Assembly: GCF_900182795.1 (NCBI RefSeq)
Contig: NZ_FXTX01000002.1
Span: 1-64,000 of the forward strand
DNA: 64,000 nucleotides
Direction of reading: 5' to 3'
Source of the DNA: Venenivibrio stagnispumantis
GTDB taxonomy: Bacteria > Aquificota > Aquificia > Aquificales > Hydrogenothermaceae
Below the pieces are notes generated by a model, which was not told the origin of the DNA, did not search any database, and worked only from the letters and a program-made list of their open reading frames with translations. Position numbers and translations under genes: made by a program. Of the stretch, positions 22,916-61,900 are shown piece by piece (position 1 is the stretch's first letter; each line of letters opens with the position of its first letter).

Positions 22916-24385
22916 TTACCTCAAACTCACATTAAATATTAAAACCGAACTTAAAGTATTTGAAATTTCCCAAAAGATAGTAGGATATATACCAAGGAAA
23001 AGAACTAAAACTGCAAAGAATGCTACCGTCAATCCTTCAAAAATTGTTATTCTATATTTATTTGTATTTTCAGGTTCATGCATATACATATTAGATACAA
23101 CTTTTAAATAATATCCGGCAGATATAATACTCATAATAACAAGAACTACTGCAAGCCACCAAAGATTGCTTCCTATGAGAGCAATAAACACTCCAAATTT
23201 ACCCATAAATCCAACCGTAGGAGGTATTCCAAGCATTGAGAACATATATATAAGCATAAATAAAGCAATCATAGGATGTTTTTTTGCTAATCCTTTAAAA
23301 TCATCAAATGTATTATTCCATCCTTCATTTTTTTCTAATGCAGAAAGTAATATAAACGCACCTATAGTCATAAAAAGATAAACAATTGAATAAAATATTA
23401 ATGCAGAAAATCCTACCATAGTAGGAGCAGCAATAGCAGCAGTTATATATCCGGTATGGGCAATAGAAGAGTATGCAAGCATTCTTTTAACACTTTTCTG
23501 TCTTAAAGCTATAGAATTACCTACTATCATAGAAGCAGCAGCTAATATACCCCATGCATATCCCCAGTAATTTCCTATAAAAGGAAATGCCTCAACCATT
23601 ACCCTAAGAAGCACTGCATAAGTAGCAACTTTTGAAACACCGGCTAAAAATGCAGTAATAGGAGTAGGTGCTGCTTCGTAAGCATCCGGTGTCCAGAAAT
23701 GTAAAGGAACAGCAGAAGCTTTTAATGCAAGTCCAAGGATTAATATTCCAAGTCCTGCAAGTGTAGCTATATCAGCTTGATTTCCTATACTATATGCAAT
23801 TGTTGAAAAATCAAAAGAACCTGTTTTTCCATATATTAATGCTATACCATAACTAATTATAGCAGTACCGGTTCCACCAATCACTAAATATTTAAATGCA
23901 CCTTCTTTTGATTTATAATCTTTTCTCCACATACCAATCAGAATATATAAGCTTACAGACATAAGCTCTAAACCTATATAAAATGTTACAAGATTAGGAG
24001 AAGAAACCATTATCATCATTCCAAGGAGGGCAAAAGTTATAAGATAATAAAACTCACCATAATGGGTTTTCTTAGCATTAAGATAACTATCCATTGTTAA
24101 AAGTATAGCAATAGTTGAAAATATTAAAAATAATTTAAAAGCAAGAGAAAATGTATCAACAATATATAATCCGTATAAGGTTATTCCACCTTCTTGTATA
24201 AAAAAGATAGATATAAATGCTACAGATAAGCCTATTATAGTTAAGAAATTAAGCAAGCTTTTATTTTTAGTAAATAATTCTAAAACAAATACAATTATAG
24301 CTGTAGTAAGAACTATTATTTCAGGTATTAAAAGATAAAAATTAGGAACTCCTAATCCTGCAACAACCTGTTGAATGATATTCAT
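22916..24385 (-). CDS. nuoN: NADH-quinone oxidoreductase subunit N
   Basis: 489 residues, about 14 membrane helices. Antiporter-like proton-pumping features include [22 protein letters not shown], the Lys in [21 protein letters not shown] and [13 protein letters not shown]. It is the last gene of the nuo operon and lies nine bases before gmk. Confidence 0.95.
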
Positions 24386-24387
24386 CG

Positions 24388-25890
24388 CTACCCTCCTATT
24401 ACCTTAGAAAGAACAAATTCTGATGTTGTTTTTATTAAATCTATCCACCATTTTGGGTATATTCCGATAACAAACATAAATATCACAAGCGGTAAGAAAG
24501 ATAAAAGTTCTGCTTTATTTAAATCTGATATTTTTTCCCAGTAGGATTTTTTCTCTTCTGTAATAGCTTCTTCCTCAAACATTGTTTTCTTATAAAGCCA
24601 TAATGTATATGCTGCACCTACAATTAAGCTAAGTCCTGCCAATGCAGCTGCCAATATACTTACTTTAAATGTTCCAAGTAAAGCTAAAAATTCACCTACA
24701 AATCCGGATAATCCAGGTAAACCGGCAGAAGCCATTGCAGAAATCATAAATAAAGTTGCAAATACAGGCACAAATCTTGCCATGCCGCCTAAATCTTTCA
24801 TTTCATAAGAATGGGCTCTTTCATAAATAAATCCAGCAGCAAGGAACAATGCTGCTGATGTCAAACCGTGGGAAATCATTGTTATAATGGCACCGTTTAC
24901 TCCTTCAACATTAAGGGCAAATGTCCCGATAGTGACAAATCCCATATGAGAAACGGAAGAATAAGCAATTAATCTTTTTATATGGGTTTGGGCTAAAGCC
25001 ATAGCAGCAGTATATATAATAGCAATTACACCAAGGGCAAACATAACCGGAACAAATTCTTTTGAAGCTTCAGGAAACCATGGAAGATTAAATCTTACAA
25101 AACCATAAGTTCCCATTTTTAGTAATACAGCTGCAAGGATTACAGAACCGGCAGTAGGAGCCTGCACGTGAGCATCCGGAAGCCATGTATGAAATGGCCA
25201 CATCGGAACTTTAACTGCAAACCCAAGGGCAAGAAGTAAGAAAAATATTACTTCAAGATTATGAGGAAGTTGTAGTTTTAATAAATCAAAATAACTTGTT
25301 GATAAAACATCATTATGTAAATAATTATAAATATACATTCCGATTACTCCAATTAGTAAGAAAAGAGAACCGAAAAATGTATATATAAAGAATTTGGTTG
25401 CAGCATATAATCTATCTTGATAACCCCATACTCCAATAATCAAAAACATAGGAATAAGCATAGCTTCCCAGAACAGATAAAAAGCTACCAAATCCCAAGC
25501 AACAAAAACACCTATACAGGCAGCTTCAAGCAGTAGGAATGCAATAAAATATTCCTTTATTCTTTTATTTATATTTGTGCTCCAAACAAAAGCTACCACA
25601 AAAGATAAAGCAGTAAGCCATACCATTGTTAAACTAAGAGCATCTACTCCAACTTCATAGCTTATTCCAAATTGTGGTATCCATGGATATTTTTCATAAA
25701 ACTGAATTTTATAACTACTATAATCATAATTAAGTAGCATATAAGAGGATATTATAAAAACAATTATGGAACTGATAATACTTATAGGTTTTGCCATTTT
25801 TTCATTTAAGAAAAACAGTAAAACAGCAGCAATAATCGGAATAATTATAGATACCGATATTATCGGAAAACTAAATGTCTGAAACTCCAT
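24388..25890 (-). CDS. nuoM: NADH-quinone oxidoreductase subunit M
   Basis: 500 residues, about 14 membrane helices. Conserved segments are [20 protein letters not shown] (with the essential Glu), [22 protein letters not shown] and [17 protein letters not shown]. It is one of the three antiporter-like proton pumps of complex I. Confidence 0.96.
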
Positions 25891-25893
25891 CTT

Positions 25894-27849
25894 TCAGCCC
25901 CCTTGTCTCAAGAATAAAAATAAAGTAAGAAATACAAATATACCTATAAGCATTTGTAGAACATAAGCAGATATTCTACCGGTTTGAGTTTTTCTTAATA
26001 TATCACCTGAAAATACCGATAAAGTAGCAGAGCCATTTACTATTCCTTCTATAATAAATCTATCTCCTACTTTCCACATTATTTTAGAAAGATTATAATA
26101 TCCATAAACAAATATCATGTAATAGATATAATCAAAGAACCATCTGTTATAAAGGGTTATATATATAGGCTTAAATGTATTTGCAACATAAACAGGGTCT
26201 ATCTTTCTTGCTTGATACATCAAATAAGCTAAGAAAATACCGGAAAGTGCAGTAAGTAATATTAATATTCCAAGTCCCGAAGTTAATGAATGGATTAAAA
26301 ATTCAAAAGCATTTGCTTCTATATGAACATTGTGGGCTCTTGATAGTCCTTCTTCAACTATAACCCTTGTTTTTTCTGATAAAAATTTCATATTTGAAGG
26401 GTCAAGGGAAGGTCTTAAGAAATTAATAAAGAACTCTCTGAAAAATCCAAGTATTACTGTAGCAGAAGCAAGAACTATCAAAGGTATTGTCATATTTGGT
26501 GGAGATTCGTGAACATGCTCTCTTATATGAGGATCTAATCTGTCTGTGCTAAAGAATGTTAAGAAGAATAATCTGAATATATAAAATGCAGTCATAAATG
26601 CACCACCCCAAAGTAAAAGCCATACGAATTTATTAATCTCAAAAGCACCTTCTATAATAGGGTCTTTACTGAAGAATCCTACAAGAGGGGGAATGCCTGC
26701 AAGAGATAAAGAACCAATCAAGAATGTTCCCATTGTTATAGGCATAGCTCTTCCAATCTGCCCCATTTTTTGAACATCTAATAAGTGATGTAAAGCAATT
26801 AAAACACTACCTGAGCCAAGGAATAATAATGCTTTAAATACTGCGTGGGAAGTTAAATGGAACATTCCTTCTGAGAATAATCCAAGTCCTTCTGCTGCAA
26901 ACATATATCCAAGCTGAGATAATGTAGAATATGCAATAATTCTCTTTATATCATTTTGAACTAATCCCATTGTTGCTGCTAAGAATGCAGATATTGTGCC
27001 TATGAATAAAACAGTATCTAAAGCTATTTCTGATGCAGCAAATATAGGCATTACCCTTGCAACCATATAAACACCGGCAGCAACCATTGTAGCTGCGTGG
27101 ATTAAAGCTGAAACCGGTGTTGGGCCTTCCATCGCATTAGGAAGCCAGATATGTAATGGTATCTGAGCAGATTTACCGACTGCACCACCGAATAATAAAA
27201 GTGCAATTGCAGTAATTACAGGATAGCTTACCTCAGGAATTTTGTTAAACATATCTAAATAATCTAATGTTCCAAAAGTAACAAATGCAAGAAGAACCCC
27301 AAGTAAGAATAACCAATCACCTACCCTGTTTACAACAAAAGCTTCCATTGCCGCATTGGCAGCAGATTTTTTATAATGCCAAAAACCTATAAGCAGATAT
27401 GAAGCAAGACCAACTCCTTCCCATCCGAAAAATAGCTGAACTAAATTATCTGCAAGTGTGAGCATTAACATTGCAAAAACGAATAAAGATAGATAAGCAA
27501 AAAATCTTGGATAAGAAGGATCTCCTTTCATATAACCGGTTGCGAATATAAATATAAAAGTAGATACACAGGTAACAACACAGGTCATCAATGCAGATAA
27601 AGGATCCCAGAATAAACTAACTGATATATCATAATTACCGATTGACATCCAAGTAAATAATTTTAAATCATAATGATTTCCGGTTTTGGCAACATCTATA
27701 AATCCAATTAAAGATGTAATAGCAGATATGGCTACACCTACAACTGCAACAATACCTGATAAAGGCTCTTTTAAAAATTTATAACCAAATAAGCCAATAA
27801 TGATGAATGCAATTAAAGGCGAAAAAGGTATAATCCATAAATACTCCAT
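25894..27849 (-). CDS. nuoL: NADH-quinone oxidoreductase subunit L
   Basis: 651 residues. Antiporter core features are LFFGWEGVGLASYLLIGFWHYKKSA, GKSAQIPLHIWLPNAMEGPTPVSALIHAATMVAAGVY (given as landmarks near residues 140 and 225) and RIIAYSTLSQLGYMFAA. The C-terminal part should form the lateral helix that links the pumps. It lies four bases from nuoM. Confidence 0.96.
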   Translation of the reverse strand: MEYLWIIPFSPLIAFIIIGLFGYKFLKEPLSGIVAVVGVAISAITSLIGFIDVAKTGNHYDLKLFTWMSIGNYDISVSLFWDPLSALMTCVVTCVSTFIFIFATGYMKGDPSYPRFFAYLSLFVFAMLMLTLADNLVQLFFGWEGVGLASYLLIGFWHYKKSAANAAMEAFVVNRVGDWLFLLGVLLAFVTFGTLDYLDMFNKIPEVSYPVITAIALLLFGGAVGKSAQIPLHIWLPNAMEGPTPVSALIHAATMVAAGVYMVARVMPIFAASEIALDTVLFIGTISAFLAATMGLVQNDIKRIIAYSTLSQLGYMFAAEGLGLFSEGMFHLTSHAVFKALLFLGSGSVLIALHHLLDVQKMGQIGRAMPITMGTFLIGSLSLAGIPPLVGFFSKDPIIEGAFEINKFVWLLLWGGAFMTAFYIFRLFFLTFFSTDRLDPHIREHVHESPPNMTIPLIVLASATVILGFFREFFINFLRPSLDPSNMKFLSEKTRVIVEEGLSRAHNVHIEANAFEFLIHSLTSGLGILILLTALSGIFLAYLMYQARKIDPVYVANTFKPIYITLYNRWFFDYIYYMIFVYGYYNLSKIMWKVGDRFIIEGIVNGSATLSVFSGDILRKTQTGRISAYVLQMLIGIFVFLTLFLFLRQGG

Positions 27850-27853
27850 AGCC

Positions 27854-28156
27854 CTAACCTCTCAACTCTGATATTTTTTCAACATCAACATCTTTCTTCA
27901 TTCTGTATATAGCCATTATTAAGCCAAGACCTACTGCTGCTTCAGCTGCTGCTATTGTTAAGATAAAGAAAACAAAAACCTGTCCGGCAACATCATGTAA
28001 TTTCATATCAAAAGCCACAAAAGCTATATTTACAGCATTAAGCATAAGTTCTGTTGATATTAGCATTGCAATAATATTTCTTCTAACAATAACACCGATT
28101 AAACCAAGCACCATCAAAAGACCACTTAGGGCTACATAGTATTCATAGGGAACCAT
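27854..28156 (-). CDS. nuoK: NADH-quinone oxidoreductase subunit K
   Basis: 100 residues, three membrane helices, with the conserved Glu in LISTELMLNAVNIAF (about 36) and AAAEAAVGLGLIMAIYR (about 70). It is one base from nuoJ. Confidence 0.96.
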   Translation of the reverse strand: MVPYEYYVALSGLLMVLGLIGVIVRRNIIAMLISTELMLNAVNIAFVAFDMKLHDVAGQVFVFFILTIAAAEAAVGLGLIMAIYRMKKDVDVEKISELRG

Positions 28157-28157
28157 A

Positions 28158-28676
28158 TTACTCCTCCTCTACCTGTTCTTTTCTTCCAAGTATAATAGCA
28201 CCAATCATAGCAACAAGTAATATAAGAGAGGCAACTTCAAATGGGAATAAATATTTTGTAAATAACATAGTAGCAACAGCCTTAGGATTTCCTATTTGCT
28301 GAATAATATTAGGAGAAAATGCACCTGTTGCAGATTTAAATGCTCCATAAACTGAAACATAAGCAAGCTCAAGAAATAACAAAAACCCAAAAGGTAATGA
28401 TAAAAGTGTATATTTTCCATCAACAGATTTTCCTTTAAACTCCGGAACGGTAGATATAACTAAAACATAAAATACAACTATTGCAACAGCATAAATTAAT
28501 ATCTGCAAAGCACCTATCAAATCAGCACCGATATTGAAAAATAGCCCTGAGATAGCAATTAAAGTAGATATTAAAGATAATACTGCATGAACTATATTTT
28601 TAAAAAATACCACTCCAATAGCAGATATAACTGCTATAAATGATAATACCCAGAAAGCAATGTTATTTAGCTCCAT
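28158..28676 (-). CDS. nuoJ: NADH-quinone oxidoreductase subunit J
   Basis: 172 residues from the ATG at 28676, which overlaps the nuoI stop; a TTG at 28691 would add five residues. Five membrane helices are predicted, with the conserved LQILIYAVAIVVFYVLVI (about residues 55-75). It is part of the membrane arm next to the quinone site. Confidence 0.93.
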   Translation of the reverse strand: MELNNIAFWVLSFIAVISAIGVVFFKNIVHAVLSLISTLIAISGLFFNIGADLIGALQILIYAVAIVVFYVLVISTVPEFKGKSVDGKYTLLSLPFGFLLFLELAYVSVYGAFKSATGAFSPNIIQQIGNPKAVATMLFTKYLFPFEVASLILLVAMIGAIILGRKEQVEEE

Positions 28677-29269
28677 TCTATATGCCCCCAAAGTTTTTTT
28701 CTTTCTTCATCATCTATCCATATTCTATCAGGCTCATTTTTTCTTCTTAAATCGTAATCTCTACCTCTTTCAGACATATCATCTTTATGAATAACACAAT
28801 TTTTTCTTTGATAATCTGCAAGCTCATATATATCTGTCATAATTATACAATCAACAGGACAGGCATCTACACATAATCCACAAAATAAACAATTTAATAA
28901 ATTCATATCAAATCTAACTACTTTCTTTTTTCCATTTGGAAGTTGAACTGCCTCTATCTTAAATAAAGAAGGCACAGGGCAGGCTTGCTGACACATATAA
29001 CAGGCAACACATCTACTTTCTCCGGTATTTATATCCATAAATTTTTCAAGGACAGAAAAAGAAGGTGGTTCGTTTCCATTTTTTATCCTATGGGCATGGG
29101 CACCTCTAAATCTTTTAGGTGGAGTTAATTTTTCATAAGGATATTTTGTAGTAATAGTTTTCTTTATAAGATTTTTAAATGTAACCTTTAGACCTTTTAT
29201 AAAATCTAAGAAAAATATCCTTTCTAATATAGTTAGATTAGGTCTTTCTACATACTTAACTTTAACCAT
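28667..29269 (-). CDS. nuoI: NADH-quinone oxidoreductase subunit I, copy 1
   Basis: 200 residues with two 4Fe-4S motifs, CVACYMCQQACPVP (about 98-111) and CLFCGLCVDACPVD (about 136-149). These carry clusters N6a and N6b, which pass electrons to NuoB. The N-terminal amphipathic part (RIFFLDFIKGLKVTFKNL) docks on the membrane. A second nuoI with longer central and C-terminal parts lies at 40.3-41.0 kb. Confidence 0.95.
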   Translation of the reverse strand: MVKVKYVERPNLTILERIFFLDFIKGLKVTFKNLIKKTITTKYPYEKLTPPKRFRGAHAHRIKNGNEPPSFSVLEKFMDINTGESRCVACYMCQQACPVPSLFKIEAVQLPNGKKKVVRFDMNLLNCLFCGLCVDACPVDCIIMTDIYELADYQRKNCVIHKDDMSERGRDYDLRRKNEPDRIWIDDEERKKLWGHIEWS

Positions 29270-29272
29270 TTT

Positions 29273-30283
29273 TTACCCTATTATCATAATTTCTATTGCA
29301 GTAATGAATATATTCAATAAAGATAACGGAAGCATAACTTTCCAGGCTATCTCTGTAATCTGGTCAACTCTATATCTTGGCAATGTCCAATGAACCCATA
29401 AGAAGAACATAAACATCATTGCTATTTTAAGGAAAAACCAAATAAATCCTGAGAATGGTCCAAAAATTTCAGGTCCTCTCCATCCTCCGAAAAATAGTAT
29501 TACTGCAATAGCACTTAATAAAAATGTTCCTATATACCATTCTGCAAGCGGGAATAATCCAAATTTCATTCCGGAATATTCTGTATTGTATCCGGAAACA
29601 AGCTCTGCTTCTGCTTCCTGAACATCAAAAGGAGTTCTTCCTGTTTCTGCAAGGATTGCAAAAAGTATAACTATAAATGCAATAGGTTGATACCATATAA
29701 AAGCACCAAAAAATCCTTCCTGAGCATTGACAATCTCTTTTAGAGAAAAAGAACCGGCAAGCATTATAGGGCCAACCATAGCAAAACCGAGAGCCACCTC
29801 ATAACCTATTAAAACTGCTGCTTTTCTAAGCCCACCAATCATAGGATATTTACTATTAGAAGCCCAACCTGCAAATATTACTCCGTATATACTAATGCTA
29901 CCAAAAGCAAGGGCAAGTATTAAACCTATATTTAAATCGGTTATATAAGGAGCTATTTTTATTCCGAAAATTTCAAACTCATTTCCAAAAGGCACAACGG
30001 CAAGTATCATAATTGCCGGAACAAATGCAAGTAAAGAAGCTAAATAAAATAAAACTTTATCTACAGAGGATGGAACTAAATCTTCTTTTGTTAAAACTTT
30101 AAGAGCATCTGCTATAGGTTGTAGTAAGCCATGATAACCAACATGTAAAGGTCCTGGTCTTTGCTGGACATGTCCTGCAAATTTCCTTTCAATAAGAGTA
30201 AGGTATGCTGATAATAGGAACATTCCTACTATGAAAATAACAGATTTTACCGTCAAACTTATCAATAATCCTACTAACTCCAT
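29273..30283 (-). CDS. nuoH: NADH-quinone oxidoreductase subunit H
   Basis: 336 residues, eight membrane helices. Quinone-channel signatures are TLIERKFAGHVQQRPGP, LQPIADALKVLTKED, and the acidic loop ETGRTPFDVQEAEAELVSGYNTEY. It is preceded by a 119-base gap that holds a palindrome and may carry an internal promoter. Confidence 0.96.
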   Translation of the reverse strand: MELVGLLISLTVKSVIFIVGMFLLSAYLTLIERKFAGHVQQRPGPLHVGYHGLLQPIADALKVLTKEDLVPSSVDKVLFYLASLLAFVPAIMILAVVPFGNEFEIFGIKIAPYITDLNIGLILALAFGSISIYGVIFAGWASNSKYPMIGGLRKAAVLIGYEVALGFAMVGPIMLAGSFSLKEIVNAQEGFFGAFIWYQPIAFIVILFAILAETGRTPFDVQEAEAELVSGYNTEYSGMKFGLFPLAEWYIGTFLLSAIAVILFFGGWRGPEIFGPFSGFIWFFLKIAMMFMFFLWVHWTLPRYRVDQITEIAWKVMLPLSLLNIFITAIEIMIIG

Positions 30284-30315
30284 AGCAACCTCTTCTTTTG
30301 TATTTTCTTTAAACT

Positions 30316-30354
30316 ATATTACCACAAATATTAAAAAAATTAAACACTGTTTTA
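30316..30354 (-). promoter_or_regulatory. nuoH upstream region: palindrome and possible -10
   Basis: The coding strand holds TAAAACAGTGTTTA (30354-30341), identical over 13 bases to the site before nuoA. Nineteen bases further is TAATAT (30321-30316), a possible -10; its -35 would overlap the palindrome and is poor. It lies in the 119-base gap between nuoCD and nuoH. Confidence 0.45.
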
Positions 30355-30402
30355 TTTATTTTTAACATATTTTAAAAATAAAAAGTTTTTATAATAACTT
30401 AA

Positions 30403-32154
30403 TTATCTATCTGTTTCCCCAACAACAGGGTCTATACTACCAAGTAAGGCTACTGCATCTGCTACAGTTCTTCCTTTTATTAATTCTGGAAATATTTGAA
30501 GATTATAAAATGCTCCGGAGCGAATTCTTAATCTATAAGGTTTTCCTTCTCCTTTTGAGATTATGTAAAATCCAAGTTCTCCCCTTGGATTTTCTCCGGA
30601 AAGATATACTTCACCTTCCGGAGCTTGTTCTCCGTATATCCTTAGATTAAAATCTTTAACCATCGCTTCTATTGATAAAAATGTTTCTTGTAATGTTGGA
30701 AGAACATAAGGATTTTCTGTTGCTATATATTTATCATTTTTCAATTTTTCAAGTTTTTCAACACATTGTTTTACTATATTTAAACTTTGTTTCATCTCTT
30801 CCATTCTTATTAGATACCTATCATAAGCATCTCCAACTTTTCCTAAGGGTATTTCAAAATCTACATAAGGATATGCATCTATCGGCTCTATTGCTCTAAG
30901 GTCGTAAGCAACACCGGCAGACCTTGCCATTACACCTGTTAATCCATATTGGTAAACATCTTCCTCCGAAACTATACCTATATCTTTATTTCTTCTTATC
31001 CATATTCTATTTTTTGTAAGTAAATCTTCATAATCTTTTATTCTCTGAGGAAAATCTTTTATAAAATGCTTAATAACATCCAATGCTCCTTCCGGCAAAT
31101 CATATCTTACTCCCCCTATTCTTATAAATGAAGAATTAAGCCTTATTCCTGCAATTCCTTCTATAATATCCATAATTTTTTCTCTTTCTCTAAATGTATA
31201 TAAAAACATTGTGAGGGCACCTATATCAAGGGCAGTCGTTCCAAGCCATAAAAGGTGGCTATTTATTCTCTGCAGTTCAAATAACATTGTTCTAATCCAT
31301 TTAGCTTTTTCCGGCACCTCTACGCCAAGAAGTTTTTCAACAGCATTAACATAAACAACATTACTACATATAGCAGATATATAATCCATTCTATCTGTAT
31401 AAGGTATTATCTGGGTATATGTTATATCTTCTGCAAGTTTTTCTATTCCCCTATGGAGTTGTCCAATAATAATATCACAATGCTGGACAACCTCCCCTTC
31501 TAAATCAAATAAAAACCATATAGTTCCATGGGTTCCTGGATGAAGAGGTCCCCAGTTTAAAACTATCTGGGATTGTTTTTTTGGCATTCTTGCTTTTTGT
31601 GTTCTTTCTAAATCTTCCAAAGTAGGAATAGCAGTATGATATGGAGAGTAATCATGGGATGGTATATTTTCTCTTTCATTTAAAGATGGAAGATATGTAT
31701 CCTGAATACCTTCCTTAGGAAAATCTTTTCTAAGTGGATGATAAGGATATCCTTCCCATAAAAATATTCTAACAAGATTCTCATGCCCTTCAAATTTTAT
31801 ACCGAACATATCATATATCTCTCTTTCAGCCCATTTAGCACCTTTCCAGAGAGATGTTAAAGAGGGAAAACTTTCTCCTTTTACAAAACTTTTTACAATA
31901 ACCCTTTGATTTAATAAAGGAGAATAAAGAATAATAACTATCTCAAATCTTGGATTATTTAATAGATAATCAACAGCAGTCATATCTATAAACATTTTAA
32001 ATTGGAAATCTTTATCTTCTTTTAAGAATTTAAGAACCGAAATTATATTATCTTGATTTGAAATAATGGAAACAATATCTTTATTTTTTTGAATTTGAAT
32101 ATGCGGAAAAGCCATTTTTAACTTTTCCGCTTTTTCTGTATCTAACCAAGGCAA
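30403..32154 (-). CDS. nuoCD: Fused NADH-quinone oxidoreductase subunits C and D, copy 1
   Basis: 583 residues from a TTG start with GAGGT seven bases upstream. Residues 1-160 are NuoC (AKWAEREIYDMFGIKFEGH, YPYHPLRKDFP). Residues ~195-583 are NuoD (NWGPLHPGTHG, LHRGIEKL with Arg235, MDYISAICSN, and the C-terminal DPVVGETDR). This fusion forms the connecting module next to the quinone site. A close paralogue lies at 41.4-43.2 kb. Confidence 0.96.
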   Translation of the reverse strand: MPWLDTEKAEKLKMAFPHIQIQKNKDIVSIISNQDNIISVLKFLKEDKDFQFKMFIDMTAVDYLLNNPRFEIVIILYSPLLNQRVIVKSFVKGESFPSLTSLWKGAKWAEREIYDMFGIKFEGHENLVRIFLWEGYPYHPLRKDFPKEGIQDTYLPSLNERENIPSHDYSPYHTAIPTLEDLERTQKARMPKKQSQIVLNWGPLHPGTHGTIWFLFDLEGEVVQHCDIIIGQLHRGIEKLAEDITYTQIIPYTDRMDYISAICSNVVYVNAVEKLLGVEVPEKAKWIRTMLFELQRINSHLLWLGTTALDIGALTMFLYTFREREKIMDIIEGIAGIRLNSSFIRIGGVRYDLPEGALDVIKHFIKDFPQRIKDYEDLLTKNRIWIRRNKDIGIVSEEDVYQYGLTGVMARSAGVAYDLRAIEPIDAYPYVDFEIPLGKVGDAYDRYLIRMEEMKQSLNIVKQCVEKLEKLKNDKYIATENPYVLPTLQETFLSIEAMVKDFNLRIYGEQAPEGEVYLSGENPRGELGFYIISKGEGKPYRLRIRSGAFYNLQIFPELIKGRTVADAVALLGSIDPVVGETDR

Positions 32155-32166
32155 TATTTTACCTCT

Positions 32167-32685
32167 TTATTTTTGTATAGGGAAGGAAGCAGTAGGAACT
32201 CTTGCAGGAATTTCTTTAAGTTCTTTTCCTTCTTGTTTTGCTTTTATCTTTTTCTGAAGTTGCATAATTCCCCAAAGCAATGCTTGTGGTGTTGGAGGAC
32301 ATCCAGGAATATATACATCAACCGGAATAATTCTATCTACTCCTTGAAGTGTAGAATAAGTTGGGAATGGTCCGCCTGCAGAAGCACATCCACCCATAGA
32401 TATAACCCATTTAGGGTCTGGCATCTGCTCATATATAAGCTTTAACATAGGAGCCACTTTATTTACAACTGTTCCGGCTACTATTAAAACATCAGACTGT
32501 CTTGGAGAACCTCTAAAAATAATTCCAAGTCTATCTGTATCAAATCTGGAAGCGGCTGTATGCATCATCTCAATAGCACAGCATGCAAGCCCTATGGAAA
32601 CAGGCCAGAGAGAGTTTTTTCTTCCCCAGCTTAAAACTTCTTCTACTGTTGTTAAAATTATTCCGCTATTATTAATCACTGCCAT
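32167..32685 (-). CDS. nuoB: NADH-quinone oxidoreductase subunit B
   Basis: 172 residues. Cluster N2 ligands are the paired cysteines Cys35-Cys36 (LACCAIEMM), the Cys in [12 protein letters not shown] and the Cys in [15 protein letters not shown]. It is the last electron carrier before quinone. It overlaps the nuoA end by ten bases. Only one nuoB is visible although nuoCD and nuoI are duplicated. Confidence 0.97.
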
Positions 32686-33050
32686 TTTAATGCTCCTTTT
32701 TTCCAGGCATAAATATAACCGAGAATTAATATAAATAAGAATAAAAACATCTCTGTAAATATAAATCCTACATTGACCTGAGCTATTTCTCTAAATACTA
32801 CAGCCCAAGGAAATACAAAAGCAGATTCAAGGTCAAATAAAACAAGTAGCAGTCCAAGAAGATAATATTTTTGGTCTATGGTTGTTCTGGCAGTTTTATC
32901 ATAAAGAGGAACACCACATTCATAAGGATAGCCTTCCAAAGGCTCAGGAGTTTTTGGAGCAAGTAATCTATTTAAAACAAGCAAAACTACCCCTATGGCA
33001 GTAGCCACTATAAAAAATACTGCTAATCCTAAATAACCTGTCCCAGTCAT
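32676..33050 (-). CDS. nuoA: NADH-quinone oxidoreductase subunit A
   Basis: 124 residues, three membrane helices, with [40 protein letters not shown] near the centre (landmark cysteine in YECGVP). It is the first gene of the complex I operon, with its own promoter and palindrome upstream. Confidence 0.95.
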
Positions 33051-38810: not shown

Positions 38811-39164
38811 TCATTTTATAGGTATTTTAAGGTAAGTTAAAGCTATACCTGCCAATACGAGTATAGGAAGCCCTATAATAATTGTTACCACAAAAGCAAG
38901 TAAAACGGTAAATATAGATTTTTTTAAGTTTTCTTTAAATAAAAGATTTGTAATTATTATCTGGAATAAAAAATAAACGAAAATTGCAATATACAAAGAA
39001 GACAAAATAATTTTAGTAATACCCATCATTACAAAACTTATCAAAACTACAATAAAAGAATAAAAAAAGGAAGGTTTTTTAAAAAGAGTTAATTTTGAAG
39101 AATACCAAAAAGAAAATGTTGCAATTAATAATAATGATATTGCTACAACAAAAGAAGAAATCAA
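38811..39164 (-). CDS. Small membrane protein of unknown function
   Basis: 117 residues from a TTG start that overlaps the upstream methyltransferase stop in TTGA. Four hydrophobic segments (about 1-20, 33-52, 56-80, 88-112) suggest an integral inner-membrane protein. I do not recognise the family. It lies between midA and efp in a tight operon. It could be a complex I assembly or lipid-related protein, but nothing in the sequence shows that. Confidence 0.6.
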   Translation of the reverse strand: MISSFVVAISLLLIATFSFWYSSKLTLFKKPSFFYSFIVVLISFVMMGITKIILSSLYIAIFVYFLFQIIITNLLFKENLKKSIFTVLLAFVVTIIIGLPILVLAGIALTYLKIPIK

Positions 39165-40315
39165 ATTTTATACCTCTGAGATAGATATGGTAATATTTTA
39201 ACAGATTCTAAATCTATATCTGCTACATTTTTTGCCTGAATAAGTATCTTAAATTTTTCTCCCATTCCCCCTGGTAATACAAGGGTTTTTAGTCTGTTAA
39301 TTCTTTCATAAGATTTGTAATCATCATTTTCTTGAAGCTGTGCGATTATATCCATAATTCCAAGATTGATAAGAAAATGTGCTTGGTCTGTAAAAGCAAC
39401 AAAATTTAGACCGGCTTTTTCTCCAAAATATTTTAAAGCAGAAAAATTTACATGGGATGTTATATCTTGCAGTCCTACATTTTGATAAAAATTTTCAGAA
39501 TATTTATGTTTATGATAGCAAAGGATTGTTCCTCTTGGTCTGTATTCTTTATAAAGCTCATTGGAAGGATAACCATAATCTATTGTTATTACAAAACCTT
39601 TTTTTAATTTTCTTCCAATTAGTTGTATAAAATCTTTTGCTATTAAATTAACTTCTGCCCTTATTCCCTCCGGAAGCTCAACATTTAACTCTTTAAAATA
39701 ATCTATTATTTTCTTTGAAGCCTCTTTTTTTATCTCAATAACTTCATCATCTTTTAAACTGATATAAATTTCATATAAAATATTGTTTTGTTTTTCTACA
39801 ATATGCACAGAAAATGCATCAAATAGCTCATTTGAGAAAATTACTCCTTCTATGCTGTTATCTTCAAAACTTTCCAAGCTTTCTACCCATTTTGCTATCT
39901 CAAAATCTTTAAGTAGCTCTTTTTGTGTTTTTATATGATATTTTGATTTTTCTATCAGGATATACTCTGATTTTTGATAAATCTCATTATATTCTGTTTT
40001 TAATGTTTGAAGTATATCATAAGCAAGATAGCCTTTTCCGGCTCCTATTTCTACTATCTGAAATTTTTCTTTTGGATTTATTTTATAAAAGATTTCTGCA
40101 AATTGTTTTGCAAGTAGTTGTCCAAATGCTTTATCTACTTCACTGCTTGTAAAAAAATCTCCAAATCCACCAATTTTTTCTTTATCTGATGTGTAATATC
40201 CTAAATCCGGATAATAAAGGGCTATATCCATAAAATCTTTAAAAGAGATAGCCCCCTCTTCCTCTATCTTTTTCTTTATTATCTCAATTAACTCTTTTTT
40301 GCCTGTTAATTTCAT
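39161..40315 (-). CDS. MidA/NDUFAF7-family SAM-dependent methyltransferase
   Basis: 384 residues from the ATG at 40315, whose ATGA overlaps the nuoI2 stop; an upstream ATG at 40363 lies inside nuoI2 and is unlikely. The SAM site VEIGAGKGYLAYDIL is near residue 85. YYPDLGYYTSDKEKIGGFGDFFTSSEV and FSNELFDAFSVH are typical for MidA. The mitochondrial member NDUFAF7 dimethylates an arginine of the NuoD homologue NDUFS2 during complex I assembly. The location beside nuoI2 and nuoCD2 suggests the same target here. Confidence 0.82.
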   Translation of the reverse strand: MKLTGKKELIEIIKKKIEEEGAISFKDFMDIALYYPDLGYYTSDKEKIGGFGDFFTSSEVDKAFGQLLAKQFAEIFYKINPKEKFQIVEIGAGKGYLAYDILQTLKTEYNEIYQKSEYILIEKSKYHIKTQKELLKDFEIAKWVESLESFEDNSIEGVIFSNELFDAFSVHIVEKQNNILYEIYISLKDDEVIEIKKEASKKIIDYFKELNVELPEGIRAEVNLIAKDFIQLIGRKLKKGFVITIDYGYPSNELYKEYRPRGTILCYHKHKYSENFYQNVGLQDITSHVNFSALKYFGEKAGLNFVAFTDQAHFLINLGIMDIIAQLQENDDYKSYERINRLKTLVLPGGMGEKFKILIQAKNVADIDLESVKILPYLSQRYKI

Positions 40316-41001
40316 TTTTGGTCTGCATAATTTGGGCCAAGGGTAGGTATATTGAAATCCCAAAGTCTAGGTCTGGTTTGGTCATACTCAGGCCATAATT
40401 TTTGGTCTTCTCTCCATGCAGATTTTTCATCAAATTTTTCTTTTCCTCTTCTTGCAACAAAATCATTAGCTATCTGTGTAAGCATATCTTTATCAAGAAC
40501 CCAATTTCTTCTTGTGTAAGCAGACAAATCATATATATCTGTCATTATAATGCAATCTGTTGGACAAGCCTGTGTGCATAAACCGCAAAATGTACATTTT
40601 GATAAATCCATATTAAACACAGTCATAACTTTTAATCCATAATGAGGATGATCTTCAGGCACATCTAATTTTTCAGCTTGAATATCAAATAATTCAGGCA
40701 CAGGGCAGGCAGCTTGGCAAAATTTACAGGCAATACATCTTGTTTCCCCAACTTCTGGTGGCTTAATTTTTAATCTTTTTACCCAATCATAAAACTCTTC
40801 ATTTTCAGTTCCATCTACTGTTCTAAGTCCATGCACTCCTCTAAATCTTGCAGGTGGTGTTACAACTTCATAAGGAAAATCTACCGTTATGGTTTTTTTA
40901 AATAGATGTTTTATTGTTGTTTTTAAACCTTTCATAAAATCTATAAAAAATATTTTTTCAATTAAAGTTTGTGGCTTTGCTCCTACTTTTTTTATACCCA
41001 T
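40312..41001 (-). CDS. nuoI: NADH-quinone oxidoreductase subunit I, copy 2
   Basis: 229 residues with two 4Fe-4S motifs, CIACKFCQAACPVP and CTFCGLCTQACPTD. Compared with copy 1 it has an insert before the first cluster (EEFYDWVKRLKIKPPEVGE) and a longer C-terminus. The N-terminal membrane-docking segment is very alike. It could replace copy 1 in an alternative complex I under another growth condition. It is translationally coupled to midA. Confidence 0.93.
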   Translation of the reverse strand: MGIKKVGAKPQTLIEKIFFIDFMKGLKTTIKHLFKKTITVDFPYEVVTPPARFRGVHGLRTVDGTENEEFYDWVKRLKIKPPEVGETRCIACKFCQAACPVPELFDIQAEKLDVPEDHPHYGLKVMTVFNMDLSKCTFCGLCTQACPTDCIIMTDIYDLSAYTRRNWVLDKDMLTQIANDFVARRGKEKFDEKSAWREDQKLWPEYDQTRPRLWDFNIPTLGPNYADQK

Positions 41002-41049
41002 ATTTAAAACCTCCTCCTATGAAATACGTTTACTATAAAATTCAAAATC

Positions 41050-41424
41050 TTAATCTAATATGGCGTAAGTTCCCGTCGCGTAAGCTACTAACTCTTTATC
41101 AGCATATAGCTCTACCACTGCAAAGGCTACCTTTTTCCCTAATTTAAGGACTTTTCCTATTGCTTTAAGTATTCCCTTTTTAGCAGGTTTTAGATAGTTT
41201 ATCTTTATCTCTATAGTTACTGCAGTTTTATCCTCGGGAAGGTTTGATATTACTGCATACCATCCTGTATTGTCAGCAAGGCTTGATATTACACCACCAT
41301 GCACGTATCCTAAGTGTTGCAAGTGATACTCTTTTACGTCTAAACTAAGGACTGCTTTTTCTTTGCTCAGTTCTTCAAGAGTAGCTCCTATATGTTCTAA
41401 AAAGGGAAGGTTAATGCCTTTCAT
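41050..41424 (-). CDS. PaaI-like hotdog-fold thioesterase
   Basis: 124 residues from the ATG at 41424, which has AAGGA about nine bases upstream; a GTG at 41451 overlapping nuoCD2 would add nine residues. The hotdog helix motif HLGYVHGGVISSLADNTGWYA (the HGG segment) is near residue 40. INYLKPAKKGILKAIGKVLKLGKKVAFAVVELY is the central sheet. Such proteins cleave acyl-CoA or aryl-CoA thioesters. Its position between two complex I genes is unusual; its substrate is unknown. Confidence 0.8.
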   Translation of the reverse strand: MKGINLPFLEHIGATLEELSKEKAVLSLDVKEYHLQHLGYVHGGVISSLADNTGWYAVISNLPEDKTAVTIEIKINYLKPAKKGILKAIGKVLKLGKKVAFAVVELYADKELVAYATGTYAILD

Positions 41425-41434
41425 CTTAAATTCC

Positions 41435-43165
41435 TTATCTATCAGTTTCACCTACTACAGGGTCTATTGTTGATAATAATGTTATTGCATCTGCTATAGG
41501 TCTTCCAAGGATTGCTTTTGTAAATACTTGAAGGTTATAAAATGCTCCGGAACGGATTCTCATTCTGTGGGCTTTTAATCCATCTTTTTTGTTATAAATA
41601 TAAAATCCAAGCTCTCCCCTTGGGTTATCGGAAGATGCATAAGTTTCTCCTGCCGGTAATTTCATACCTCTACCATCTATCGTAACTTTTAATTTTTTTT
41701 CATCAGGGGTTTGGAAGAAATAAGGGTCATTCTTAGACATTTTTCTAAGTTTTGCTACACATTGCTCTATTATTCTTATACTTTGTCTCATTTCTTCCAT
41801 TCTTACAAGGTATCTATCATAAGAATCTCCTACTTCTCCAACCGGTATATCAAACTCAACTTCTCCATAGGCATCATATTTATCAAGTTTTCTAACATCA
41901 TAAGGAACTCCTGAACCTCTTGCTACTGCACCGGTTAATCCATATTGATATACATCTTCTTCTGTGATTATACAAACATCTTTATTTCTTTTAAGCCATA
42001 TTCTGTTTCTTGTAAGTAATGTTTCATAATCATTTATTCTTTGAGGTAAATCTTTTATAAGATGCTCTATTGCATCTAATGCTCCATAAGGTAAATCAGC
42101 AAATACCCCACCTATTCTGAAATAATTTATTGTAAATCTTGCTCCTGTAATACCCTCTATAATATCCATAATTTTTTCTCTTTCTCTAAATGTATATAAG
42201 AACATTGTGAGGGCACCAAGGTCAAGTGCATAGGTTCCAAGCCAAAGTAGATGGCTGTTTATCCTTGAAAGTTCAGCCATCATTGTTCTAATCCATTTAG
42301 CTTTTTCAGGCACTTCTATTCCGAGTAATTTTTCTGCTGCAAGCACATAAGCATGATTTTCATTTATAGCTGCGATATAATCCATTCTATCTGTGTAAGG
42401 TATAAATTGTTGCCAATTTACATTTTCTCCAAGTTTTTCAACACCTCTATGAAGCTGACCTATGATAATATCACATTGTTTTACATACTCTCCATCAAGG
42501 TCAAATAAAAACCAGATGGTTCCGTGGGTTCCCGGATGAAGAGGCCCCCAGTTTAAAACTATCTGAGATTGTTTTACAGGCATTCTTGTTTTTTGGGTAA
42601 TCTCTAAATCTTCCATAGTTGGAATGGCAGTATGCATTTTAGAATAATTAAACATTCCTTCAAGCTGGTCTCCCCTTTCTGTCTCATTTAAAGAAGGAAG
42701 CTCGGTATCCTGTATTCCTTCAAGTGGAAAATCTTTTCTAAGTGGATGATAAGGATATGTTTCCCAAAGAAGCATTCTGACAAGATTTTCATGTCCTTCA
42801 AATCTTATACCAAACATATCCCAGGCTTCTCTTTCAGCCCATTTAGCACCGGCCCAGAGTTTAGTAAGTGTAGGTAGTGTTTCATCTTCTGCCCATGTTT
42901 TTACAATAATTCTTTCTTTATATTCCGGAGAAAATAATATTACAACACCTTGAAATCTTGGATTTTCTTTTTCTCCGTGGTCTATTATTGTCAAATCAAT
43001 AAACATTTTAAATTGATAATCTTTATCTTCTTTTAAGAATTTGAGAAGATTTATAAAGTTATTTTTTGGAATTTCTATAACTGTGCAACCTTTACCTTCG
43101 TAAGCTTTTATATCCGGAAATCTTTCTTTAAGTTTTTCAGCTTTTTCCAATGTTATCCACGACAT
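41435..43165 (-). CDS. nuoCD: Fused NADH-quinone oxidoreductase subunits C and D, copy 2
   Basis: 576 residues, closely similar to copy 1 along its whole length. NuoC part: AKWAEREAWDMFGIRFEGH. NuoD part: NWGPLHPGTHG, LHRGVEKL with Arg240, and the C-terminal DPVVGETDR. Differences concentrate in the NuoC first 90 residues and in the segment before the C-terminus. It has its own promoter with a palindrome at the start site. With nuoI2 it offers an alternative connecting module for the single nuoAB/HJKLMN set. Confidence 0.95.
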   Translation of the reverse strand: MSWITLEKAEKLKERFPDIKAYEGKGCTVIEIPKNNFINLLKFLKEDKDYQFKMFIDLTIIDHGEKENPRFQGVVILFSPEYKERIIVKTWAEDETLPTLTKLWAGAKWAEREAWDMFGIRFEGHENLVRMLLWETYPYHPLRKDFPLEGIQDTELPSLNETERGDQLEGMFNYSKMHTAIPTMEDLEITQKTRMPVKQSQIVLNWGPLHPGTHGTIWFLFDLDGEYVKQCDIIIGQLHRGVEKLGENVNWQQFIPYTDRMDYIAAINENHAYVLAAEKLLGIEVPEKAKWIRTMMAELSRINSHLLWLGTYALDLGALTMFLYTFREREKIMDIIEGITGARFTINYFRIGGVFADLPYGALDAIEHLIKDLPQRINDYETLLTRNRIWLKRNKDVCIITEEDVYQYGLTGAVARGSGVPYDVRKLDKYDAYGEVEFDIPVGEVGDSYDRYLVRMEEMRQSIRIIEQCVAKLRKMSKNDPYFFQTPDEKKLKVTIDGRGMKLPAGETYASSDNPRGELGFYIYNKKDGLKAHRMRIRSGAFYNLQVFTKAILGRPIADAITLLSTIDPVVGETDR

Positions 43166-43275: not shown

Positions 43276-43650
43276 TTAAACTATTAACATACTTAAAATG
43301 AGTATGAATCCGATGAAAGCAAGAGAAATGCTTAGTAGCAAATATATTTTTTTATCTTTATATAGCTCTCCTTTGCTTAGGTATTCAATCCATTTAATAT
43401 AGTAATAATAGGCATAAAGAGATATTAAAACTCCTATTATAATAATAAAAATACCAAGATAGTTGTAAAATTCGGCATGTTGTAAAGCTGCAGGAAGTGA
43501 TTTTCCTTTTATTTCATAGATTATAACATCTAAGAAAAGTTGAAATTTTTCAATAACAAATCCTAAAACCATCATAGATATTGCAAGTCTTATAATAGCT
43601 ATTGTGGAACGTTGAACAGCCATAATATCCTTTGGGTCTATTTTATTCAT
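43276..43650 (-). CDS. DUF202/YidH-like membrane protein
   Basis: 124 residues with three membrane segments. The start DIMAVQRSTIAIIRLAISMMVLGFVIEKF is typical of DUF202 proteins (RTxLAxxRTxLA pattern). The function of the family is unknown. It overlaps the upstream gene by eight bases, so the two are probably co-expressed. Confidence 0.7.
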   Translation of the reverse strand: MNKIDPKDIMAVQRSTIAIIRLAISMMVLGFVIEKFQLFLDVIIYEIKGKSLPAALQHAEFYNYLGIFIIIIGVLISLYAYYYYIKWIEYLSKGELYKDKKIYLLLSISLAFIGFILILSMLIV

Positions 43651-44509
43651 TTTTCTTATTTCCTAATAGTTCAAGATTTTTGATAAGATAAGAAAAAACA
43701 AAGAGAAGAAAAGAAAGAGCAATAATTAGCAAAGCAACATATAGAGGCACATGGGTAAAACCACTTAGAGAAGCTTTAAAGAAAAATAAAAGAGTTTCTA
43801 TGAATAGAGCAATTATTATTGATGTTAAAAATGTGATAAAGGATTTAGCCTCAAATATCTCAAGAACATCTGAACGCACAAAAACTTCATGAAGTATAAT
43901 TGCTTTTCCAAGGTCAAAGAAAGCTAAACCAAGTGTTACTGCTATAACAGGTTTAAAAATCTTTTCAATATTAAAGTTATTAAAATTATATAAATCATAT
44001 AAAAAATTACCTATTCCAAAAAAAACAGAGAAAATAGCAAAAAATAGTATTGCCGATCCCATAAACAGATAGCTGGCTTTCATGAAAAGTGTAAATTTTT
44101 CATTTTCATATATCAAATTAAGACAACTAAGAAGTTCCGAAAGGTTAATGTCAAAAAAACGATAGCCATTCTCATTTTCTACAATAACGGTAACTGTTAA
44201 CCTTTTTGTCTCGGAAGAGATATATGGTTCAGTAATAAAATATGGAGATGTTTTATCCCTTAATTCCACAATTTGATTAAGATTTTTGCCAATCCTTTCA
44301 GTAATTTCGGAATGTCTGGTATATAAAGGAGTGCGTTGAATATAATTTTTATCACTTTCATAAACTGCATCAAGGCAATCAAGAATTTCAAACCACTCTT
44401 TAATATTTACATCATTTATAGTTTGCTCGGCAAATTTATCTATTGAATTTATAATAAATTTTTCTATCCAGTTCTTGTTTTCTTTATATATTTTTATGAT
44501 ACTTTGCAT
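43643..44509 (-). CDS. Membrane protein with sensor-like N-terminal domain, unknown function
   Basis: About 288 residues from the ATG at 44509, which has GGAGG five bases upstream; earlier starts up to 44524 exist. Residues ~1-125 look like a partial Cache/PDC sensor domain (KNLNQIVELRDKTSPYFITEPYISSETKRLTVTVIV). Four membrane segments follow (about 150-180, 190-215, 225-250, 260-285). There is no output kinase, cyclase or methyl-accepting domain. It is coupled to a DUF202 protein. The family is not one I can name with certainty. Confidence 0.6.
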   Translation of the reverse strand: MQSIIKIYKENKNWIEKFIINSIDKFAEQTINDVNIKEWFEILDCLDAVYESDKNYIQRTPLYTRHSEITERIGKNLNQIVELRDKTSPYFITEPYISSETKRLTVTVIVENENGYRFFDINLSELLSCLNLIYENEKFTLFMKASYLFMGSAILFFAIFSVFFGIGNFLYDLYNFNNFNIEKIFKPVIAVTLGLAFFDLGKAIILHEVFVRSDVLEIFEAKSFITFLTSIIIALFIETLLFFFKASLSGFTHVPLYVALLIIALSFLLFVFSYLIKNLELLGNKKNE

Positions 44510-44570
44510 CATATCCTCCATCAAAGCTTCTATATCCTAAGTATTATAACAAAAAATTTATCTTATAAAG

Positions 44571-58957: not shown

Positions 58958-61900
58958 ATGGAAAGAGTTGTTATTAAGAGAGATGGTAGTGTAGAAAGAT
59001 TTCAGATGAAAAAATTGATAAACGCTATATTTGCATTGTTTGATGGGATGAATCTTCCGGATGATTGGGAAATAGCCTTTAAAATAGCAAAAGAGCTTGA
59101 TTTAAAAATACCTGAAAAAGTAACAACAGAAGAACTTGATTTTCTTGTCCTAAAAGCAATAGAGCATCTTATTCCTTCTCATTATATATATGATACATTG
59201 GCATCAAGACAATTACTTAAAATTATAAATAGAAAGATAGATAAAAGATTTAGCTCTTTTGAAGAGATGATAAGATATGGTATAAAAGAAAATCTATATA
59301 AAGAAGAAATAGGAAAATTTGATTTAGAAAGATTATCTAAGGTTATAGATTACTCAAGAGACCATCTTCTTGATTATTTTGGCTTGACTACATTAAAAGA
59401 TAGATATTTTACAAGAGATAGGAATGGAGAAATAATAGAAAAACCTCAATGGTTTTTTATGAGAGTAGCCCTTGGAATAGGTAATAATGAGGAAGAAATA
59501 ATAAAAATATATGATAAAATTTCAAAACTTGAATATCTCCACTCAACCCCAACATTATACAATTCCGGAACTATAACAAATCAGTATTCTTCATGTTTCC
59601 CTGCAGGAACTCCGATAATAACAAAAAATGGAGTTAAAAATATAGAGGATATACAAGTAGGTGATGTAGTATTAACTGCAGAAGGTAATTTTAAAGTAGT
59701 TTCAGGAACTTTTCAGAGAAAATATAGTAGCAAACTTTATAAAATAAAAGTATGGGGACTTTGGGGGGATGAAGAAACAGTAAAAGCAACTGATGACCAT
59801 AAATTTTTGGTTTTACCAAAAGAGGAAGTTGATTGTAATAGAAAATTTTTCAAAGTATGTCCTCCATATCAAAATACGCTAAAATGCCAACCTGTCTATA
59901 GAGAGTATGCAAATGTTTGTGAAAGAACAGAAATAGATTTATTGGAAGCACTAAAATGGACAGAAGCTAAAGATTTAAATGAAGGCGATTTTATAGTTAT
60001 TCCTTATCCAAAAGAGGTGAAAGATAAAGAATTTTTAAATATTTTAGATTATATAGATAATATAAATCTTATAGAAAAAGATGGATATATTTTGAAAAAA
60101 AATTATGATAAACAAAAAAGAACCCCTGAATTTAATAATCAAATAAACACTATAAAAGCAAAAATTCCATTAAATTCGGATTTCATGAGATTTTTAGGAT
60201 ATTATCTTGCAGAAGGATACATTTTAGATAATAGATTAATAGTTTTCACATTCAATTCAAAAGAAAAAGAGTATATAGAAGATGTTAGAAATCTTTCTAT
60301 AAAATTATTTGGTATAGTGCCAACTATACACGATAATAAAGATAATTCAACAAGAATATCCATACATAGCACATATTTATCTAAATTTATAAATAATCTT
60401 GTAGGAACCGGATATAACAAAAAAGTTCTTCCTGAAGAAATTTTACTTGCCAAACCTGAAAGTCAAAGAGGATTAATAATAGGAATATTCAGAGGTGATG
60501 GAACTACGGTTTCCGATGGAATGAGATTAACCATATCAAATAAATCTTTAGCATATCAAATATTTATAATTCTTTTAAGACTCGGATATATGCCGAGAAT
60601 TTCAAAAGCATATAAAAATCATTTAGCAAAAGAACAACCCTATTCTATACATTTATCAATTAATGATGGATTAGATTTAATTAAGGAAATAAATAAAGAT
60701 TTATATAAGATAAAAGCAAAACCAGATATGAAAAAAATTAATAGTTACAGATTCAGATATGGTGATTATGTATTTTATAAAATCCAATCTATAAAAACAG
60801 AAAACTTTGATGGTATAGTATATGATTTTGAAGTAAAAGGAGACCATAGCTTTAGTGCAAATTTAGTAGCAGCACATAATTGTTATGTAAATGTTATAGA
60901 TGACTCATTAGAATCTATTATGGATAAAGCGAAAGAAACTGCTTTCTTGGCTAAATATGCCGGTGGAGTTGGAACAGATATTACAAGAATTAGAGCAACC
61001 GGTTCTCCGATAAAATCCTTAAATGCAAAATCTTCCGGAATTATTCCATTTATAAAAATATTTGATACCATTGTAAATGCTATACAACAAGGAGGTAGAA
61101 GAAGAAGTTCTCAGGTTATGTATTTACAACCATGGCATCTTGATGTTGATGCATTCTTAGATTTAAGAGAAACAACCGGTAATCCTTATTTTAGAACACC
61201 ATCACTTAATACTGCCTTCTGGATGCCTGATGAAATAATGAGAAGAATAAAAGAAGGAGAACCTTTTTATCTTTTTGACCCGGCAGAATGTCCGGAGCTT
61301 ATAACAAGCTATGGAGAAAATTTTAAAATAAAATATGAAGAATGCATAAAAAAAGCAGAAAATGGAGAACTAAAATTATGGAAAAAAGTAGAAGATAGTC
61401 AAGGATGGTTTAACAGATATTTATTTAAACTTGCTAAAACCGGACATCCATGGTTAATATTTAAAGACAGACACAACGAAGCTAATCCTGTTCCAAAATA
61501 TGGTGTTATAAACTCTTCTAATTTATGTAGTGAGATTTCCTTGCCAAACTCTCCGGAAAGAACAGCAGTCTGCACACTTGCCTCTGTAAATCTTACAAAA
61601 CATATAAATGAAAACAAAACAGATATAGATTGGGAGAAATTAAAAGAAACATTAGAAATTATGGTAGTTGCCCTTGATAATATTTTAGATAAAAACTTTT
61701 ATCCATCGGAAGAATCAAGACTTCATACAATGGAACTTAGACCACTTGGCATTGGATTAATGGGATTTGCCGAAACTTTAATAGAACTTGGTATCCCTTA
61801 TGATAGTGAAGAGGCAGTAGAGTTTGCAAGAAAAATAGCAAAATTTATGAGAGAAGTTACTTTTAGAAAATCAGAAGAACTTGCAGAAGAAAGAGGTGCT

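Follow-up and report, generated by a model that had tools for sequence, protein, structure and literature searches.

Within the first 64,000 nucleotides of contig NZ_FXTX01000002.1 of Venenivibrio stagnispumantis (Aquificota, Hydrogenothermaceae; assembly GCF_900182795.1), hereafter the window, a gene for a MidA methyltransferase directly follows nuoI2, and nuoI2 together with nuoCD2 forms a second copy of two complex I (nuo) genes. Judged from sequence comparison, the maturation of NuoCD in this species is very probably the task of MidA. The explanation that best covers the whole, and which is regarded as probable, is that MidA is an NDUFAF7-type methylase of NuoCD, that CD2-I2 is a second, interchangeable half-module, and that midA is supplied along with it. 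The strongest evidence found is the co-distribution of MidA and NuoD over genomes, which is stronger than the gene order.

In Bacilli, 301 genomes were evenly drawn under a completeness filter of 95%; NuoD was present in 139 of them, and a strong MidA match occurred in exactly the same 139 genomes and in none of the 162 others. The weakest accepted MidA match had an E value of 5e-26 and the strongest rejected one 1.7e-8, and the other 24 matches, all weak (E 1.7e-8 or worse), lay in genomes without NuoD. NuoD also accompanied MidA in all 42 of 42 named MidA carriers (Bacteroidota, Acidobacteria, Nitrospirae, Deltaproteobacteria, Bacilli and archaea), and Arg stood at the target site in every NuoD motif that was read, namely in 29 sequences from the named MidA carriers and 45 from the best-scoring Bacilli. 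In Aquificota (118 genomes), canonical NuoD, defined by a score threshold of E < 1e-75, and MidA occurred together in 95 genomes, NuoD only in 5, MidA only in 2 and neither in 16 (Fisher 1e-13, with relatedness of genomes disregarded in the P values); at a threshold of 1e-60 the table becomes 96/10/1/11, and in the Desulfurobacteriaceae-like family f5 it reads 12/0/1/8. Hence MidA accompanies a particular type of complex I and not all of them, which agrees with E. coli, where the Arg is unmodified (PMC3750175) and no PF02636 match was obtained in this analysis. The idea that complex I always requires MidA was rejected on account of genome G113 (sampled in stretches), where an 11-subunit operon without EFG carries the motif LHRMQEK and no PF02636 match was found. 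The operon of family f3 is divergent, with the motif VTRNxEK. In Chitinophaga and Terrimonas (L185, L186, L249 and L250), each MidA-bearing genome has two complex I NuoD types, one with HHRGAEK (fused CD) and the other with YIHRAFEK.

This distribution bears directly on the proposal, made for Wolbachia, that MidA of bacteria acts on DNA or as a general methyltransferase. After expression in E. coli, the Wolbachia protein was reported to leave N4-methylcytosine (m4C) and N6-methyladenine (m6A) on the E. coli genome, a result which its authors call preliminary (2025, PMC12455994), and the role of MidA in prokaryotes is described in the same source as inferred in silico only. However, if MidA were a DNA methylase, its restriction to just the NuoD-bearing Bacilli would be unexplained, as would its place in nuo operons, and this proposal appears very improbable. 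On the basis of co-distribution and linkage, complex I is favoured over DNA as the real MidA target.

The MidA of the window matches PF02636 (Methyltransf_28) with an E value of 1.8e-59 over positions 1-248 of 249, and its S-adenosylmethionine (SAM) motif I (GxGxG) reads VEIGAGKG, including the family-invariant residues E89, G91, G93 and G95. It is homologous to the solved structures 5ztz (Dictyostelium MidA; E 1e-19), 1zkd and 4f3n, which bears out its earlier description as the bacterial counterpart of NDUFAF7, and the genome that encodes it also encodes complex I NuoD with the target Arg. Outside the family, the closest sequences to Hydrogenothermaceae MidA are those of archaeal Methanoperedens (47-50% identity), whereas identity to the sister family Aquificaceae is about 35%, which suggests that the gene may have been horizontally transferred. 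A bacterial (proteobacterial) origin of MidA was argued in 2018, according to a title cited in PMC12455994.

As for the modification itself, human NDUFAF7 symmetrically dimethylates Arg85 of NDUFS2 and is itself required for assembly, and its knock-down removes the modification and blocks assembly (PMC3829151). Dimethylation was found on NuoD Arg65 of Paracoccus denitrificans, and the Arg is also modified in Pichia; the modification is absent in E. coli, which keeps the Arg unmethylated, and Thermus has Thr at the target position (PMC3750175). The Arg stabilises cluster N2, and the Yarrowia equivalent is needed for that cluster (PMC8042128). An earlier note on this DNA had taken gene order as support for the same job of MidA in bacteria. 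What stands is that MidA tracks complex I with HRGxEK-type NuoD over large genome sets; as a statement on bacteria it is not new, Paracoccus NuoD having already been known to be dimethylated (PMC3750175). The note had also leaned on the conservation of the Arg. Both NuoCD copies do keep it, as residue 235 in CD1 (QLHRGIEKL) and residue 240 in CD2 (QLHRGVEKL), but conservation had to be rejected as evidence of methylation because the Arg is kept unmodified in E. coli (PMC3750175) and is kept in 11-subunit complexes without MidA.

In the proposed scheme, MidA would serve complex I in bacteria as a protein arginine methyltransferase of the NDUFAF7 type, and early in assembly it would symmetrically dimethylate the HRGxEK Arg of NuoCD (Arg235 in CD1, Arg240 in CD2). 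This Arg is expected to line cluster N2 of NuoB, and its dimethylation may let NuoCD dock on NuoB. The placement of midA behind nuoI2, with coupled translation, would supply the methylase together with its substrate.

The genes concerned lie in the window as follows, the family assignment of the ORFs (open reading frames) resting on NCBIfam and Pfam profiles:

22916..33050, minus strand: main nuo operon A-B-CD1-H-I1-J-K-L-M-N (NCBIfam and Pfam)
28667-29269, minus strand: nuoI1, in the main nuo operon
30403-32154, minus strand: nuoCD1, in the main nuo operon, with Arg235
38811..39164, minus strand: small membrane protein, no Pfam match, TTGA overlap with midA
39161..40315, minus strand: midA (NDUFAF7 homologue), ATG start, PF02636
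40312..41001, minus strand: nuoI2, second NuoI, by NuoI models and two 4Fe-4S motifs
41050..41451, minus strand: hotdog-fold thioesterase, GTG start, PF03061/TIGR00369
41435..43165, minus strand: nuoCD2, second NuoCD fusion subunit, PF00329 and PF00346 (E 3e-38 and 1e-90)

The string from nuoCD2 to the small membrane protein runs head to tail on the minus strand about 8 kb beyond the main nuo operon, toward higher plus-strand coordinates. The four ORFs described earlier (nuoCD2, thioesterase, nuoI2 and midA) were thus all recovered, and so was the four-base overlap, which is an ATGA common to the nuoI2 stop and the midA start. NuoCD2 has fused 30 kDa and 49 kDa domains with the HPxxHG, HRGxE and DRxDY segments, and its quinone-site His and Tyr motifs and its HRGxEK segment (Arg240) are intact. 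In NuoI2 both CxxCxxCxxxCP motifs, which bind clusters N6a/N6b, are intact (CIACKFCQAACP and CTFCGLCTQACP), with a family-specific insert between them and a longer C-terminus; the gene has a ribosome site of the GGAGGAGG type. For the thioesterase, the ATG at 41424 is an equally likely start. A promoter and terminator scan was uninformative, the signals not being in excess of those in shuffled sequence, and no nuoEFG genes were found within the main nuo operon.

The genome as a whole (1.56 Mb, 99.9% complete) contains one midA, two intact NuoCD and one divergent hydrogenase-type NuoCD, two NuoI, one complex I NuoH and one divergent NuoH from a hydrogenase-like cluster, one each of NuoL, NuoM and NuoN for complex I besides two of hydrogenase type, and a single NuoF, which stands with NuoE on contig C17. 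That only nuoCD and nuoI are duplicated, as had been claimed, holds for those subunits that were counted; further copies of A, B, J and K in the rest of the genome were not looked for individually. The further claim that exactly the electron-path subunits at the quinone site are doubled is correct in part: the ligand of cluster N2 is NuoB, which the pair does not include, and the doubling therefore covers no more than part of the electron path at that site. No NuoB gene lies beside nuoCD2-nuoI2, a statement about this locus, as no genome-wide NuoB search was made. The genome has no second complete complex I operon with its own H, L, M and N, and the extra copies belong to the hydrogenase-like cluster. 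This hydrogenase-4/complex-I-like cluster, at about 43-50 kb of contig C4, includes separate genes resembling NuoCD, NuoB, NuoH and NuoL; a cluster of this kind directly adjoins the midA operon in one relative (L067).

The CD2-I2 pair is present, with no other nuo genes alongside, in all 10 Hydrogenothermaceae genera sampled, and in every genus both proteins are full length and keep their cofactor and quinone residues. In Aquificaceae the orthologous CD2 and I2 lie within a nearly full second operon, A2-CD2-H2-I2-J2-K2-L2-M2, which has no B, E, F or G of its own at that place. In the NuoD-domain tree, the CD2 proteins of both families form one clade (ultrafast bootstrap, UFBoot, 100) inside an Aquificales-specific group, and therefore the duplication predates the split of Hydrogenothermaceae and Aquificaceae; the unrooted NuoI tree, with its I1 and I2 sides, is compatible with this. 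The simplest reading of the sequences is that the nuo2 membrane genes were lost in Hydrogenothermaceae, so that nuoCD2-nuoI2 would be what remains of the hydrophilic portion of an ancient second nuo operon; alternatively, nuo2 may have grown in Aquificaceae. In one Aquificaceae genome (L031, 2190-4037 and 11696-13624), nuoL1 and nuoL2 match almost completely for about 450 residues before they part, a pattern that suggests gene conversion between the two operons.

What the pair does today is a separate matter. Of several readings, the best, and one to which we lean slightly, is that CD2-I2 can take the place of CD1-I1 as isoforms that share a single NuoB and a single membrane arm. They would then make up an alternative for one half of the connecting (Q) module and would have to rely on the single NuoB, the membrane arm and the NuoEF of the genome. 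Alternatively, CD2-I2 could belong to another membrane oxidoreductase and serve as its connecting module, such as a ferredoxin-driven complex that lacks NuoEFG or one built on the hydrogenase-like membrane cluster of contig C4. The absence of E, F and G from the Aquificaceae nuo2 operon would fit this, as would a second nuo cluster without EFG in Thermovibrio (PMC5441870), the insert and tail peculiar to NuoI2, and the peripheral-arm structure of Aquifex (7q5y), which holds the CD1 and I1 forms although its CD chain is named 'C/D 2'. However, the hydrogenase-like cluster already has NuoCD, NuoB and NuoH homologues of its own and is found in part of Hydrogenothermaceae only, while CD2-I2 is found in all genera, and such a different oxidoreductase seems rather doubtful. 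Returning to the exchange of isoforms, a more specific form of it is put forward tentatively: Hydrogenothermaceae would fit either of two Q-modules, CD1-I1 or CD2-I2, to the same NuoB and membrane arm, the CD2-I2 operon would bring its own maturation methylase, and exchanging half a module might tune the surroundings of N2 and perhaps also the electron donor of complex I.

With regard to linkage, midA directly follows nuoI2 in 20/37 Hydrogenothermaceae genomes from four genera, namely the genus of the window (1/1), g7 (2/2), g8, which includes Persephonella (10/10), and g9, Sulfurihydrogenibium (7/7). In g2 both genes lie at contig ends and linkage could not be scored, and in two draft g10 genomes no midA was found. 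Linkage, of which the earlier note had suggested a survey, is tight with nuoCD2-nuoI2 in these four genera and absent from several others of the family and from the Aquificaceae examined. Spacing between nuoI2 and midA is a 4-base overlap, a 1-base overlap or direct abutment in three of the genera, and about 40-95 bases in the fourth. Outside the family, 80 named MidA loci (GTDB genomes) included three Chitinophagaceae/Bacteroidetes contigs with midA downstream of nuoN and one Acidobacteria contig with the order nuoA-nuoB-midA; the rough chance expectation is about 0.5 cases and the three Bacteroidetes are relatives, and this proximity is suggestive only.

The place of midA behind nuoI2 is likely to reflect functional co-expression. 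The other explanation is that MidA does methylate complex I and that its spot is incidental, midA and its membrane-protein neighbour having landed there once or twice and stayed. The genera with linkage fall into two distinct groups of the CD2+I2 tree, (g1, g7, g9) and g8, with weak support for the deep nodes, which implies either two origins of the linkage or several losses. The small membrane protein (38811-39164) is next to midA in 7/10 genera, even where nuoI2 is not adjacent; unrelated ORFs have also entered the string; and the Aquificaceae examined lack the linkage. These points speak for incidental placement. The very tight spacing over three genera and the recurrence of nuo linkage in two other phyla speak against it, and we hold it to be fairly unlikely. 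The small membrane protein itself is a possible functional partner of MidA. The thioesterase, which the earlier note had included in the connecting module, was rejected as a part of it: it occurs between nuoCD2 and nuoI2 in its own genome only, the relatives having a gap of 10-20 bases or of roughly 300 bases there, and two Sulfurihydrogenibium-type genomes an unrelated coiled-coil ORF.

Several points weigh against MidA as a co-supplied methylase of NuoCD and must be set beside the evidence above. The co-occurrence counts are not independent, the genomes being related. In five draft genomes of Aquificota, canonical NuoD is present with no midA detected, and MidA-less complex I exists in E. 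coli and, as 11-subunit complexes, in two Aquificota lineages, which means that the modification is not universal. Furthermore, midA is unlinked to nuoI2 in g3, g4, g5, g6 and g10, it lies away from nuo at the Aquificaceae loci examined, and the Bacilli midA genes that were checked are far from nuo. Lastly, CD2-I2 may work with something else than the membrane arm encoded by nuo1.

Elsewhere in the window, a DUF202 membrane protein and a 293-residue membrane protein without assignment are encoded just upstream of nuoCD2 (43276-44524, minus strand). By eye only, the 1218-residue ORF of a class I ribonucleotide reductase large subunit (58958-62614, plus strand) has an apparent intein (CFPAGTPI... 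to ...VAAHNC), and an ORF at 11-1096 (plus strand) resembles a TnpB/IS605-type transposon nuclease with a C-terminal CHKC...CEC zinc-finger pattern.

The exact match of midA and nuoD across the 301 Bacilli, with the operon linkage seen here, points to complex I as the job of bacterial MidA, and with the orphan CD2-I2 pair nature offers an example in which isoforms may be exchanged within the complex I connecting module. Compared with known systems, MidA of V. stagnispumantis shares with NDUFAF7 and Dictyostelium MidA (PF02636, 5ztz) the fold family, the SAM motif and the candidate substrate segment HRGxEK in NuoD/NDUFS2, but differs in that midA stands in an operon with its presumed substrate, as in part of Hydrogenothermaceae. 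In Paracoccus, NuoC and NuoD are separate. Its NuoD is an example of a bacterial complex I modified at the same residue (Arg65); unlike here, there is no paralogous copy, and the enzyme is not assigned in PMC3750175. The nuo2 operon of Aquificaceae has a CD2 orthologous to that of Hydrogenothermaceae but keeps A2, H2, J2, K2, L2 and M2, while Hydrogenothermaceae retain CD2 and I2 only. Finally, the 11-subunit complex I without NuoEFG resembles CD2-I2 in having a connecting module without its own NADH module, whereas CD2-I2 is without any membrane arm of its own.

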